A stretch of DNA of 64,000 nt from contig NZ_CP012600.1 of assembly GCF_001278705.1 (NCBI RefSeq), positions 496,190-560,189 on the forward strand, given 5' to 3'. The notes under the pieces were generated by a model. That model worked only from the letters and a program-made list of their open reading frames with translations, was not told the DNA's origin and made no database searches. Position numbers and translations under genes: made by a program. This document shows, in pieces, positions 9,426-13,655 of this stretch; the first letter of the stretch is position 1, and every line of letters begins with the position of its first letter. The DNA is from Bacillus gobiensis (GTDB lineage Bacteria > Bacillota > Bacilli > Bacillales > Bacillaceae).

Positions 9426-10781
9426 TTAAGCTTCTTGTTCACGCGCTTTTATATATTCTTCTTTCTTTGTTTCGATTTCATCATCTTCAGAATGCTTTTT
9501 TACCTCTACATAAGCGACATGATGTCCGTCAATCTCGGCTATAATGAATTCAAATCCTTGCTCACTAATGGAGTCACCTTTAGTCACATCATATTTTTGG
9601 GTTAAGAACCAGCCGCCTATCGTGTCTACTTCTTCATTTTCAAGCTCAATTCCTAATAATTCGTTGACTTGATTAATTAAAACTTTTCCATCAAGGATAT
9701 AATGTCCGTCTTCAATCTTGCGAATTTCATTGATCTCATCAATATCAAATTCGTCCCGGATTTCACCAACAATTTCTTCGATGATATCTTCCACGGTCAC
9801 AAGGCCTGCTGTTCCTCCGTATTCATCCGTCAATATTGCCATATGAAGATGTTCTTTTTGCATGCGGAGAAGCAGCTCATGAATTGGCACCGTTTCAATG
9901 ACATGAATAATCGGATTGATAAAACTCGAGATAGAGTCTTCTTTCGATGCATCGCCGTTGATACATGCCGTTAATACCTCTTTTATATTAATGATGCCAA
10001 TAATGTTATCCTTATCGCCATCCTCGATCGGATAGCGGGTATATCCTTCTTCCTTAATTAGAGACATCATTTCTTCTATTGATATTTCCTTTGAAAGACT
10101 GCTGATTTCCGTTCTCGGAATCATAATTTCTTTGGCAAGCCTGTCATCAAATTCAAATATTTTGTTTACATATTTAAATTCAGATTGGTTGATCTCGCCG
10201 CTTTTATAGCTTTCAGACAATATGATGCGAAGTTCCTCTTCTGAGTGTGCGATGTCGTTTTCTGAAACAGGCTTTAATCCGAAAGCCCTCGATAACAAAC
10301 GAGCTGAACCATTCAATATCCAAATAAAAGGAAAGGCGATTCTGTAAAACCAAATCAATGGTTTTGCAAACACAAGAGTCAGCTGTTCCGCTTTTTGGAT
10401 GGCAAGCGTTTTAGGCGCCAGTTCACCGACGACAACATGCAAAAATGTCATGCTGCCAAAAGCGATAGCGAACGAAATAATATGCGAAACAGATTCTGGT
10501 AAATGCCAATGCTCAAATAACGGCAAAAGCATTCGTTCAATTGTCGGTTCCCCGAGCCATCCTAGACCCATAGCAGTAACCGTAATGCCTAATTGGCATG
10601 CAGATAAATACTCGTCAAGATGAGTCGTTACGTGCTTGGCTGCAATTGCCTGTTTGTTACCTTCTGCTATCAGCTGATCGATTCTGGAGCTTCTCAATTT
10701 AACAATCGCGAATTCAGAAGATACGAAAAACGCAGTAAAAGCTATAAGTATAGCGACTATTATCAAATTAACTATTTCCAA
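9426..10781 (-). CDS. mpfA: Magnesium exporter MpfA (YhdP), CNNM/CBS/CorC protein
   Basis: This 451-residue protein is close to B. subtilis YhdP/MpfA, which exports Mg2+. A CNNM/DUF21 membrane domain (about 1-195, with SSEFA and LGWLGEPT) is followed by a CBS pair (about 205-330, IPRTEI and YTRYPI, then [23 protein letters not shown]). A CorC/HlyC domain ends it (about 345-435). The start is TTG at 10781, forced by an in-frame TAA immediately upstream and matching the conserved N-terminus (M-D/E-IVNL). The only strong Shine-Dalgarno sequence lies 36 bases away, behind a 10-bp hairpin. The gene is preceded by an unusually long leader. A paralog, yhdT, diverges from the same region. Confidence 0.95.
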
Positions 10782-10824
10782 TTAGTGCCTTCATTCTTTA
10801 GTCAGAATGAAGGAAACACCTCCT
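10779..10824 (-). promoter_or_regulatory. Shine-Dalgarno / hairpin / TTG start arrangement of mpfA
   Basis: On the minus strand AGGAGGTG (10824-10817) is followed by TTT and then by a perfect 10-bp stem (CCTTCATTCT 10813-10804 region with its complement, loop 6 bases, together spanning 10788-10813). CACTAA and the TTG start codon (10781-10779) follow. Linear spacing from AGGAGG to TTG is 37 bases; with the hairpin folded it is about 11, near optimal. Confidence 0.75.
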
Positions 10825-11273
10825 GTTTAATGAAAGATTAAAAATCATTTGCCTTAAACAGCGGTATAAAAATTGAATGGCCGATGTATATAGAAGAAAG
10901 CTTCATTTGTCTTTCTTCCGTTGAAATCGAATATGAATAGATCTAAAAAAGCTATTAGTTGAATTGCGATCAATTTCATCTTAATTGAGTTGAGAAGATT
11001 TGGCACCTCACCCTCAATTTGAATTCGGACGGGGCCATTCACTGCTGCTTGCGGCAAACAACAAATTGAAGCTGTTTAAAGCAAATTTTTCCCGTAGTAG
11101 CAGCTTAGTAAACATGCTGCCAGTTACTAAGAATACAAGATTAGACAATTGCTGTATTTTGCTTTCTTTTGTCAGCCTGCCGAAACGATATTTCTCAGCC
11201 CCACCTGAATCCCTCCTTATCCGAACAACGTGATAGTTATGAGAATAGTTTAATATATTGTAATGAGATTATA
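10825..11273 (-). promoter_or_regulatory. Long structured 5' leader region of mpfA
   Basis: This stretch without a gene reads on the minus strand from a TATAAT (11273-11268, weak -35) to the mpfA ribosome binding site, implying a leader of about 480 bases. It holds several inverted repeats: 11104-11111 with 11124-11131 (8 bp perfect), AATTGAG / CTCAATT near 10984-11021, and GAATTG-type repeats followed by a T-rich stretch near 10945-10980. It does not match the M-box magnesium riboswitch that I remember. Small ORFs in it are not convincing. Confidence 0.45.
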
Positions 11274-11362
11274 CAAGAGAACAGTTTTAAAAAAAGATCA
11301 TAAAAAAGTAAATATCCATAATGTCTATATCCGCCAGCCGTACATAAAGTTAAATTAAAAAC

Positions 11363-11390
11363 TTAATATTCTGAAATTTTGTGCTAAAAT
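11363..11390 (+). promoter_or_regulatory. Candidate promoter of yhdT
   Basis: TGCTAAAAT (11382-11390) is an extended -10 element, with a weak TTAATA 16 bases upstream. It would give a leader of about 165 bases before the yhdT start. Confidence 0.45.
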
Positions 11391-11425
11391 ATAAGGAATA
11401 GCTTTAGATATTGATTGGAGCTTTT

Positions 11426-11473
11426 ATGTACATATTTTGTCTTGGAGGTGGTACGATGGGGCCCTCTGGATAA
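11426..11473 (+). CDS. 15-residue upstream ORF in the yhdT leader
   Basis: The frame MYIFCLGGGTMGPSG starts 5 bases after TTGGAG and ends about 85 bases before yhdT. It contains a second Shine-Dalgarno-like GGAGGTGG in front of an internal in-frame ATG (MGPSG). A role as a leader peptide is speculative; no homolog is known to me. Confidence 0.35.
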   Translation: MYIFCLGGGTMGPSG

Positions 11474-11524
11474 CAATATTACCAGAAACGGGACATCTGC
11501 TTTTTGGGAGAATGGAATTCCTTT

Positions 11525-11562
11525 AGGAGGTGGCGATTTATCCATCCGGATAAGACGAAATG
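11525..11562 (+). promoter_or_regulatory. Shine-Dalgarno / hairpin / ATG arrangement of yhdT
   Basis: AGGAGGTGG (11525-11533) is separated from the ATG at 11560 by a 6-bp hairpin (TTATCC, loop ATCC, GGATAA; 11538-11553). Linear spacing from AGGAGG to ATG is 29 bases; with the hairpin closed it is about 13. The paralog mpfA has the same layout with an unrelated hairpin sequence. Confidence 0.7.
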
Positions 11563-12777
11563 GACGATATAGATAATCTGATTTATATTGGCATTCTAAT
11601 TGCTTTAACAGCTTTCTTTGTCGCATCAGAATTTGCAATTGTTAGAGTAAGAGGTTCCAAGATCGATCAGCTCGTTACAAAAGGCAATAAGCAGGCAGTA
11701 CTTGCAAAGAAAATAACGAAGGATTCGGATCAATATTTGTCAGTCTGCCAGCTTGGAATTACCATCACAGCATTAGGCCTTGGCTGGCTGGGTGAGCCTA
11801 CCTTTGAAAGATTGCTTCGTCCTTTATTTGGTTACATGAACCTTCCGGATTCGCTTGTCAGCATTATTACCTTTGGAACAGCTTTTGGCGCGATTACATT
11901 TTTACATGTCGTGATTGGTGAGCTGGCACCAAAAACGCTTGCGATTCAAAAATCAGAGAAGCTTACTTTATGGTTTTCTCGTCCGCTTCATTTTTTTTAT
12001 ATCATGATGTACCCTGTCATTTTGGTGTTAAACGGGTCTGCCAGGCTCTTAACAGGAATATTCGGTTTGAAGATGGTTTCTGAGCATGAAGCCCATAGCG
12101 AGGAAGAATTAAAATTAATTCTATCCGAGAGCTTAAAAAGCGGGGAAATTAATCCATCTGAATATAAATTCGTAAATAAAATATTTGAGTTCGATAAGCA
12201 AATTGCAAAAGATATCATGATACCTAGAACGAAATTGATTGCCGTTAAAAATGATATGTCCATAATTGATGTTTTGAAAACTGTTTCGCATCAGAAGTTC
12301 ACAAGATATCCTGTTGAAAATGGTGATAAGGATCATATTATCGGAATGCTGAATACGAAGCAGCTTTTTATCGATTTAATGTTTATGAGCGATGATGAAG
12401 TCAGCAGGCTTTCTGTAAAAGATTATACACGTCCTGTCATCGAAGCTAACGAACACATACCTCTTCGTGAATTATTAAAAAGGATGCAGCGGGAACGTAT
12501 TCCAATGGCCATCTTAATTGATGAATACGGAGGAACGGCGGGACTTGTTACGATCGAGGATATACTCGAAGAAATTGTTGGCGATAGCAGTAATGAATTT
12601 AATAAGAACGAAGAATTGTTAACTAAGAAACAAACAGATGATTCTTTCATCTTAGATGGCACAATTGAGTCTCAGCCGAATTTTATAGAAGAAGAGCATA
12701 ATGCAATTGGAGGTTTGATGTTAAATCAGCGAAATTCAAGAAGCCGGGTGAATCTATCCCGTATGAACGAGCAGTAA
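11560..12777 (+). CDS. yhdT: CNNM/CBS-domain transporter, MpfA paralog YhdT
   Basis: This 405-residue protein belongs to the same hemolysin/CorC-related family as MpfA and is probably involved in divalent-cation efflux. It has the CNNM membrane domain (1-195, SEFAIVRVRGSKIDQL and [21 protein letters not shown]) and a CBS pair (about 205-330, [35 protein letters not shown]). The C-terminal CorC/HlyC domain is short: after the CBS pair only about 60 residues follow instead of about 110, and the end (NSRSRVNLSRMNEQ) does not look like the family. B. subtilis YhdT is about 461 residues, so the tail may be truncated by a frameshift or early stop. The start MDDIDNL agrees with the family. Confidence 0.88.
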   Translation: MDDIDNLIYIGILIALTAFFVASEFAIVRVRGSKIDQLVTKGNKQAVLAKKITKDSDQYLSVCQLGITITALGLGWLGEPTFERLLRPLFGYMNLPDSLVSIITFGTAFGAITFLHVVIGELAPKTLAIQKSEKLTLWFSRPLHFFYIMMYPVILVLNGSARLLTGIFGLKMVSEHEAHSEEELKLILSESLKSGEINPSEYKFVNKIFEFDKQIAKDIMIPRTKLIAVKNDMSIIDVLKTVSHQKFTRYPVENGDKDHIIGMLNTKQLFIDLMFMSDDEVSRLSVKDYTRPVIEANEHIPLRELLKRMQRERIPMAILIDEYGGTAGLVTIEDILEEIVGDSSNEFNKNEELLTKKQTDDSFILDGTIESQPNFIEEEHNAIGGLMLNQRNSRSRVNLSRMNEQ

Positions 12778-12888: not shown

Positions 12889-13266
12889 CTACGCTCCGCT
12901 TAGAGGTAAGATTAGGTAAATAGAAAAACCAGCTGCATAAGCAAGCAAACAGCCGAAAACAGATAGGAGAATATAAACGAACGCTTCCTTTACCTTATGA
13001 TCCATGAAGAGCTGGATTGCTTCCACACTGAAGGTTGAGAATGTAGTGAACGCACCAAAAAAACCGGTTGAAATAATGGTTATAAGAGCGGGATGCGTCA
13101 TTTGTAAATATGTAAAAATGCCGAGGCCAAAGGATCCGAGTACATTAATAAGTAAAATCGCAATCGGAATTTGTGTATAGTATTTTTTTGAAGAAATGAG
13201 CTGACCCAGCCAAAATCTTAAAGCTGAACCCAAGCCGCCAGCTGCCATCACAGCCAAAATCATCAT
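12889..13266 (-). CDS. fluC: Fluoride channel subunit FluC/CrcB (second copy)
   Basis: This is a 125-residue, four-helix protein of the Fluc family, which exports fluoride as a dual-topology dimer. The family signatures LINVLGSFGLG and GFFGAFTTFSTFSVEAI are present. The ATG at 13266 overlaps the stop codon of the preceding fluC gene (ATGA), with GGAG upstream, so I place the start there; the frame is open 183 bases further but that is out-of-frame fluC1 sequence. Two adjacent and divergent copies usually form a heterodimer. This corresponds to B. subtilis yhdU/yhdV. Confidence 0.9.
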   Translation of the reverse strand: MMILAVMAAGGLGSALRFWLGQLISSKKYYTQIPIAILLINVLGSFGLGIFTYLQMTHPALITIISTGFFGAFTTFSTFSVEAIQLFMDHKVKEAFVYILLSVFGCLLAYAAGFSIYLILPLSGA

Positions 13267-13655
13267 GGAGTAATCCGCTCCTTTCGCTTGCTTGCAAAGT
13301 TTCTTCCAATCAAAATGCCAAGCAATGCCGCAAGCAGCCCAAAAGTGACAGTGGCGGCCATATATCCGGCGGCAAGCATTGGAGAACCTGAATACATTAA
13401 ATGGAGAGTCTCCTTCGCAAAGGCTGACATCGTCGTAAATCCTCCGCAAAATCCTGCTCCCAAAAACGCATAAAGGGCTGTTTTTTTAGAGTGAAAAAGA
13501 TAAAAACCTGTTACTATACCTAAAATAAGGCTGCCTGCTGTATTCTCCAGCCAGCTCCAATAAGGAATCGGAAATGGAATTGCTTGTTCATTGAGTAAAA
13601 ATCGGAATAATGTGCCTAGCGCACCTCCGAAAAAAACCGCAGCAAATTGTTTCAT
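13263..13655 (-). CDS. fluC: Fluoride channel subunit FluC/CrcB (first copy)
   Basis: The 130-residue Fluc-family subunit has four hydrophobic helices and the signatures WLENTAGSLILG and GFCGGFTTMSAFAKETL. Its C-terminus is rich in positive charge (FASKRKERI), while its partner is not, which fits opposite membrane orientations of the two subunits. It overlaps yhdW upstream and the second fluC downstream by ATGA, so all three are likely translated from one message. No fluoride riboswitch was recognised upstream of yhdW. Confidence 0.9.
   Translation of the reverse strand: MKQFAAVFFGGALGTLFRFLLNEQAIPFPIPYWSWLENTAGSLILGIVTGFYLFHSKKTALYAFLGAGFCGGFTTMSAFAKETLHLMYSGSPMLAAGYMAATVTFGLLAALLGILIGRNFASKRKERITP

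Follow-up and report, generated by a model that had tools for sequence, protein, structure and literature searches.

Leaders of MpfA-type CNNM genes in Bacilli probably carry a conserved ribosome-binding site split by a hairpin, with fold-dependent initiation

The window, by which we mean the whole stretch of 64 000 nt from Bacillus gobiensis analysed here (contig NZ_CP012600.1, positions 496 190 to 560 189), contains two genes, mpfA on the minus strand and yhdT on the plus strand, that adjoin head to head. Pfam finds CNNM (PF01595), CBS (PF00571) and CorC_HlyC (PF03471) domains in mpfA and the same set without CorC_HlyC in yhdT; the two are thus identified as CNNM/CBS proteins from sequence, with Mg2+ export itself a putative function. 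Two open reading frames (ORFs) beyond yhdT (12889-13655, minus strand) resemble in their translations what we take to be a fluoride channel pair of the CrcB/FluC type. The features of the two leaders, in window coordinates, are the following:

9426-10781, minus strand: mpfA coding sequence (CNNM, CBS and CorC_HlyC domains)
10779-10781, minus strand: mpfA TTG start codon (sequence; the N-terminus aligns with relatives)
10788-10813, minus strand: mpfA bridging hairpin, a perfect 10-bp stem with a 6-nt loop (sequence and folding)
10813-10804 and 10797-10788, minus strand: 5' arm and 3' arm of the mpfA hairpin
10817-10824, minus strand: mpfA Shine-Dalgarno sequence (SD) AGGAGGTG (read from the sequence; GGAGGTG retained among relatives)
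11456-11473, plus strand: mini-ORF MGPSG-stop 5' of yhdT, with its own SD GGAGG at 11444-11448
11525-11533, plus strand: yhdT SD AGGAGGTGG (sequence)
11534-11557, plus strand: yhdT bridging hairpin (sequence; covarying stem in 24 distinct leaders of the genus)
11538-11543 with 11548-11553, plus strand: 6-bp core of the yhdT hairpin; the extended stem has 9 pairs and one mismatch
11560-11562, plus strand: yhdT ATG start codon (sequence; relatives' N-termini agree)
11560-12777, plus strand: yhdT coding sequence (CNNM and CBS domains, no CorC_HlyC match)

The original prediction had proposed that a hairpin separates the SD from the start codon in both genes. For mpfA we find the hairpin and the TTG start exactly where they had been placed, and the spacing, counted from the last G of AGGAGG, is 37 nt in linear and 11 nt in folded form, the values that had been estimated. 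A 71-mer around this hairpin folds with -19 kcal/mol (z -3.28; 1 of 200 shuffles was equally good), and the mean pair probability of the stem is 0.986 at 37°C and 0.967 at 65°C in the energy model; it is unchanged between 1 M and 0.05 M salt in a model that holds no Mg2+ term. The 6-bp hairpin of yhdT (11538-11553) and its linear spacing of 29 nt are also as described, and its stem is weaker than that of mpfA (pair probability 0.945 at 37°C, 0.722 at 65°C). In its own genome the yhdT hairpin is no better than shuffles (z 0.27 and 0.76); its support comes from relatives. The yhdT leader furthermore holds an additional 5-nt SD match, AAGGA, at ordinary spacing to one candidate start. As to the protein, the yhdT product of the window (C-terminal stretch 12600-12777, plus strand) has 405 aa, compared with 461-462 aa in two relatives, and its short length together with the missing CorC_HlyC match suggests that this gene may be decaying.

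A protein search identified five CNNM paralogues in this genome, and all five show the same bridged layout: GGAGGUG, a private stem-loop, a few nucleotides and then the start codon, which is UUG in four cases and AUG in yhdT. The hairpin of yhdT is the weakest of the five. The two stems in the window had been described as unrelated in sequence; this is right, and it is true of all five paralogues. As a control for chance occurrence we used 377 ORFs of at least 120 aa from the window and from 20 regions of 20 kb of the same genome. A first hairpin criterion selected 5 of these 377 ORFs, namely two CNNM genes and 3 others; an 8-nt SD match was present in the CNNM genes only, and the remaining 3 ORFs had 6-nt matches as well as an ordinary SD. 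Under a second, lenient rule, 6 of the 375 ORFs outside the CNNM family scored as positive, every one of them with a 6-nt SD match.

To describe the spread of this layout, CNNM leaders were gathered at genus, order and class level, together with 80 named loci. For every possible start we compared the SD match behind a predicted hairpin with that at ordinary distance, and leaders in which the former was better were assigned to class B. With a lenient folding range, 196 of 226 Bacilli CNNM leaders fell into class B compared with the 6 of 375 control ORFs, the 226 leaders not being independent (29 are yhdT leaders from a single genus, 80 rank highest among 548 loci, and the remainder were hand-picked from among the matches listed). 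A stricter folding range gave 171 of 226; by counting flanking pairs as folded it overlooked hairpins that are plain to see, and the wider range was then used for genes and controls alike. By group, class B under the lenient rule (in brackets the number under the stricter rule) comprised 5 of 5 own paralogues (4), 29 of 29 yhdT leaders of the genus (29), 21 of 22 other leaders of the genus with one tie (19), 15 of 22 at order level with one tie (12), 48 of 66 from the class search (40), 78 of 80 named loci (67) and, in two extra genomes of 5-7 Mb from family f31, 0 of 2 with one tie (0). Two leaders, L060 and L099, were left out of the counts (in L099 the locus is cut and the start misplaced). 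The SD match in front of the hairpin is at least 7 nt long in 198 of the 226 leaders, ties included.

At least one class B leader is found in 25 of the 35 families with a family label (26 with a tie). In family f31 it is seen in 0 of 6 leaders; in family f37, the home of genus g39, in 8 of 8. A tuf string taken as Staphylococcus-specific occurs with at most one mismatch in 7 of 7 tested g39 genomes and in 0 of 4 tested genomes of other genera. Among the named leaders are those of Geobacillus, Metabacillus, Priestia, Peribacillus, Neobacillus, Psychrobacillus, Rossellomorea and Cytobacillus. A search at phylum level returned one class B leader in 26 plus one tie, both with a 6-nt SD match, and an ordinary SD in 16 of 26. 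The split-site layout, as predicted from these leaders, is a trait of much of the class Bacilli. The family is also able to do without it, since 27 of the 226 Bacilli leaders were classed as ordinary or neither. In six leaders (L083, L087, L088, L091, L113 and L206) the element is longer and more complex, its hairpin including a C-rich stretch (CCCC/CCCTC...CGGG).

The strong SD mostly lies 25-40 nt from the start codon, and a variable stem-loop with kept pairing is found in between. In 175 distinct leaders, a count that, like the 182 used below, reduces kinship bias without removing it, the linear spacing ranges from 19 to 55 nt (interquartile range 30-38) and the hairpin length has an interquartile range of 20-29. 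The folded spacing is far more uniform, with a median of 10 and an interquartile range of 9-11, and it falls at 9-11 nt in 66% of the 175 leaders versus 15% of shuffles. Linear spacing and hairpin length are correlated with r 0.87; 40 sets of dinucleotide shuffles treated by the same rules reached r 0.40 on average and 0.60 at most. A first estimate with a crude hairpin finder had given a folded standard deviation of 6.1, no narrower than the linear one of 6.0, as bulged stems were cut short. With an energy-based helix and merging rules, which were written after the result of the crude finder, the folded standard deviation is 3.1; the same merging rules gave at least 6.3 in 40 of 40 sets of shuffles. 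For other genes of this genome the ordinary SD spacing is mostly 6-9 nt, and the median bridged spacing thus exceeds it by 2-3 nt. The segments between SD and start are more stable than their shuffles (mean z -3.4; z < -2 in 87% of 182 distinct leaders, three of which come from the groups 'phylum' and 'paeni'), and the upstream SD itself has a mean unpaired probability of 0.7.

The sequences of the stems vary widely, with 87 different outer 6-nt 5' arms as counted by the crude finder. The original prediction called for compensatory changes in the stems of relatives, and these were found in two of three sets. In 26 leaders from other genera, selected for one common stem register, 95.8% of cells are paired, with 19 double-sided changes in 5 pairs; 0 of 500 shuffles were as high, and slid registers gave 0-5 cells. 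In 24 distinct yhdT leaders 99.5% of cells are paired, with 8 double-sided changes in 3 pairs; here shuffles were as high in 0 of 500 cases for cells and in 22 of 500 for pairs. In the alignment of mpfA leaders from the genus, covariation did not go beyond shuffles, the sequences varying too little. Since the letters of the stem turn over while pairing is kept, it is the fold and not the sequence that would be selected, and folding very likely matters for synthesis of the putative exporter. The earlier proposal that folding sets the initiation spacing is likewise supported, as far as leader comparisons go, by the near-constant folded spacing, the length correlation, the covariation, the spread and the family specificity described below.

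The bridged site is accompanied by a weak start codon. Outside yhdT, UUG is the start codon in 146 of 151 distinct bridged leaders, compared with 16 of 134 other genes in this genome and 5 of 13 Bacilli CNNM genes with an ordinary SD; all 24 distinct yhdT leaders start with AUG. Weak start codon and bridged site go together. One could ask if the true SD is instead an AAGG- or GGAG-like 3' arm that is sequestered by the hairpin, the upstream SD being a standby or mRNA-stabilising site. In SD-sequestering RNA thermometers a hairpin in the initiation region holds the working SD paired within its stem; the CNNM leaders share the hairpin in the initiation region, but their strong SD lies outside, 5' of the stem. 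The 3' arms are in fact often AAGG-like, and an SD-like match of at least 5 nt occurs 4-13 nt from the start in 37 of 175 leaders. However, the other 138 have none, in 52 of 175 there is not even a 4-nt match within 20 nt of the start, and the 4-nt matches that do occur are mostly 3-5 nt from the start, which is too close. A sequestered SD would also leave the constant folded distance from the upstream SD unexplained, and we regard this reading as very improbable.

Specificity for the family was investigated with covariance models. The first model, R1, was built from the 26 leaders of other genera. Run on 61 genomes it returned 52 matches; all but one, which has E 0.7, stand directly 5' of a CNNM gene, and two of these 51 were checked further. 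R1 extends over the start codon and one more codon, so that its signal is coding in part. R1 had no match in the B. gobiensis genome, and a wider model (R2) was therefore built from 66 matches, including four of the own paralogues. In the own genome R2 finds the four paralogues other than yhdT at E < 0.001, all four being in the training set; its top match is the whole mpfA leader, itself a training-set member. One further match there has E 1.75, and the score of yhdT is weak (E 0.74 over the 464 kb searched). Applied to 41 genomes of the order, R2 has 36 matches at E <= 0.1, of which 34 are at CNNM genes and two, with E 0.04 and 0.07, are not; 11 of the 34 come from six genomes outside the training handles, with overlap with named records possible. 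No match was seen at those CNNM relatives in the 41 genomes whose identity does not exceed about 34%. The occurrence of matches at MpfA-type genes and their absence at distant CNNM genes suggest that the element marks the MpfA subfamily. Rfam had no match at gathering score in the whole 64-kb window, and at 10700-11700 only sub-threshold matches were seen, none over the leader hairpins.

In light of these data we consider it quite probable that MpfA-type CNNM leaders carry a conserved split ribosome-binding site on which initiation would depend on the fold. The 30S subunit would pair with the SD, with the hairpin remaining folded and looped out. About 10 nt would be left, and the start codon (in most cases a weak UUG) could thereby reach the P site. 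Loss of the fold would lead to poor initiation. Since predictions show the hairpin almost permanently folded, the default would be a modest, fold-dependent rate. Factors that unwind the hairpin, e.g. DEAD-box helicases, would tune exporter synthesis, and factors that alter how the ribosome seats the hairpin would do so likewise. The split site is the well-supported part of this picture; the regulatory step is a hypothesis.

Two further readings of the hairpin place its role elsewhere. The strong SD might serve a short ORF that starts within the hairpin, and an ATG, GTG or TTG is indeed present 5-13 nt past the SD in 32 of 175 leaders; such start codons are nevertheless rarer than expected from shuffles (18% versus 37%), with ATG in only 2, and a leader peptide of this kind is hardly credible. 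A transcription attenuator, with the hairpin as an intrinsic terminator, finds some basis in four leaders 5' of the L003-type paralogue (L064-L067), in which a T-run follows the bridging stem and ends at the TTG start, so that the element there resembles an intrinsic terminator. Neither mpfA and yhdT nor most of the listed leaders have a T-run after the stem, and a terminator scan of 10700-11620 found none, which makes attenuation extremely unlikely as the general explanation. We also considered that the site could switch between two states, with the SD captured by the 5' arm in one of them. This pairing has a mean energy of -4.17 kcal/mol versus -3.85 for shuffles; in 90 of 175 leaders its energy is below that of shuffles by more than 0.3, it is far weaker than the main hairpin (-12.2), and the switch was set aside.

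How the site could respond to Mg2+ or temperature is a separate question. The original prediction suggested that translation could depend on Mg2+ or temperature through the stability of the stem. In such a melting sensor, high Mg2+ or cold would fold the hairpin and switch translation on, and low Mg2+ or heat would unfold it and switch translation off. The genes belong to an Mg2+-efflux family, the layout makes folding matter, and S. aureus cells that lack the DEAD-box helicase CshB show, in MH, a greater excess of mpfA mRNA at 25°C than at 37°C (PMC5122736). However, the predicted stems are very stable (median -12.6 kcal/mol; 113 of 175 exceed a mean pair probability of 0.9 at 37°C and 0.15 M), and neither temperature nor salt has much effect on them. 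Because they stay folded in a model without an Mg2+ term, dependence on Mg2+ or temperature by melting is unsupported, and we think a melting sensor very unlikely.

A different, tentative idea, which we rate as possible yet rather doubtful, is that the ribosome itself is the sensor of Mg2+ (and cold), by way of the hairpin-split site and the UUG start, and that exporter synthesis would rise in Mg2+ excess without a riboswitch or protein regulator. Seating of the 30S subunit on an SD duplex packed against a hairpin and at a near-cognate start codon would depend on Mg2+ and RNA helicases far beyond ordinary initiation. According to the accessible parts of the respective reports, mpfA mRNA was up in S. 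aureus without CshB in all conditions tested, most strongly in RPMI and at 25°C, an effect that its authors regard as possibly indirect (PMC5122736), and the link between mpfA and cold was called difficult to understand (PMC6711546). The latter work also describes an mpfA mutant whose Mg2+ sensitivity was relieved once the paralogue mpfB started with AUG in place of GUG (PMC6711546), which indicates that initiation is able to limit the CNNM family. The S. aureus data, which concern mRNA and not translation, would agree with a putative hairpin that favours translation and is counteracted by a helicase, as they would with other models.

The yhdT leader might hold a second layer. A mini-ORF M-G-P-S-x with its own SD lies upstream of yhdT in 30 of 30 leaders of the genus, with the codons ATG/GTG, GGG (GGA once), CCC, TCT/TCA and a variable fifth, followed by a stop in 29; the one remaining extends to 11 codons without an early stop. 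G-P-S is invariant across the 30 leaders and the fifth codon differs, and GGGGCCCTC is absent from all other CNNM leaders, of which up to 300 nt were inspected. The mini-ORF is a possible leader peptide. In this respect yhdT resembles Salmonella Mg2+ genes with small regulatory ORFs, e.g. mgtQ, as portrayed in the accessible part of PMC8092293; in contrast to these, MGPSx has only five codons, contains no acidic residue and lies 5' of an exporter-family gene.

The closest precedent for the split site comes from phage T4, where, in the available portion of the source, structure shortens the distance between SD and start from 27 to 11 nt and from 22 to 5 nt, and destabilising mutations in genes 25 and 38 lower translation (PMC3014915). 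As in these two genes, the SD of the CNNM leaders, which are known from sequence, is too distant and an intervening structure shortens the gap; the folded spacing of about 10 nt is close to the 11 nt given for T4 gene 25 in that same portion (PMC3014915). The T4 cases are single phage genes, and the structure of gene 25 is, by the same partial account, kept in close T-even phages only (PMC3014915), whereas the CNNM split site is found in a cellular gene family, in paralogues, class-wide, with unrelated stems and mostly UUG starts. It shares with the B. subtilis mgtE M-box riboswitch (PMC6711546) the position in cis on the mRNA of an Mg2+ transport gene; the M-box serves importers, the CNNM element exporters. 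The latter is also a single short stem-loop with no aptamer-like conserved core and, in the window, no Rfam match. We found no report of this element in the literature searched, which covered few subscription papers, nor in the available text of the structured-RNA surveys PMC2864571, PMC8632094, PMC11109978 and PMC6429828. The principle is thus known from T4; its conserved, paralogue-wide cellular version at putative Mg2+-exporter genes appears to be new.

One gene family has kept a split site across much of a bacterial class despite turnover of the stem sequence, and, judged by the leaders compared here, this is strong evidence for selection on the fold rather than on the sequence. Start-site prediction that relies on linear SD spacing would go wrong for an actual group of genes. 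The split site also offers a candidate explanation of why loss of CshB raises mpfA mRNA in S. aureus and why cold aggravates the effect, and it leads to a testable idea of how Mg2+ exporters may be controlled in Bacilli.
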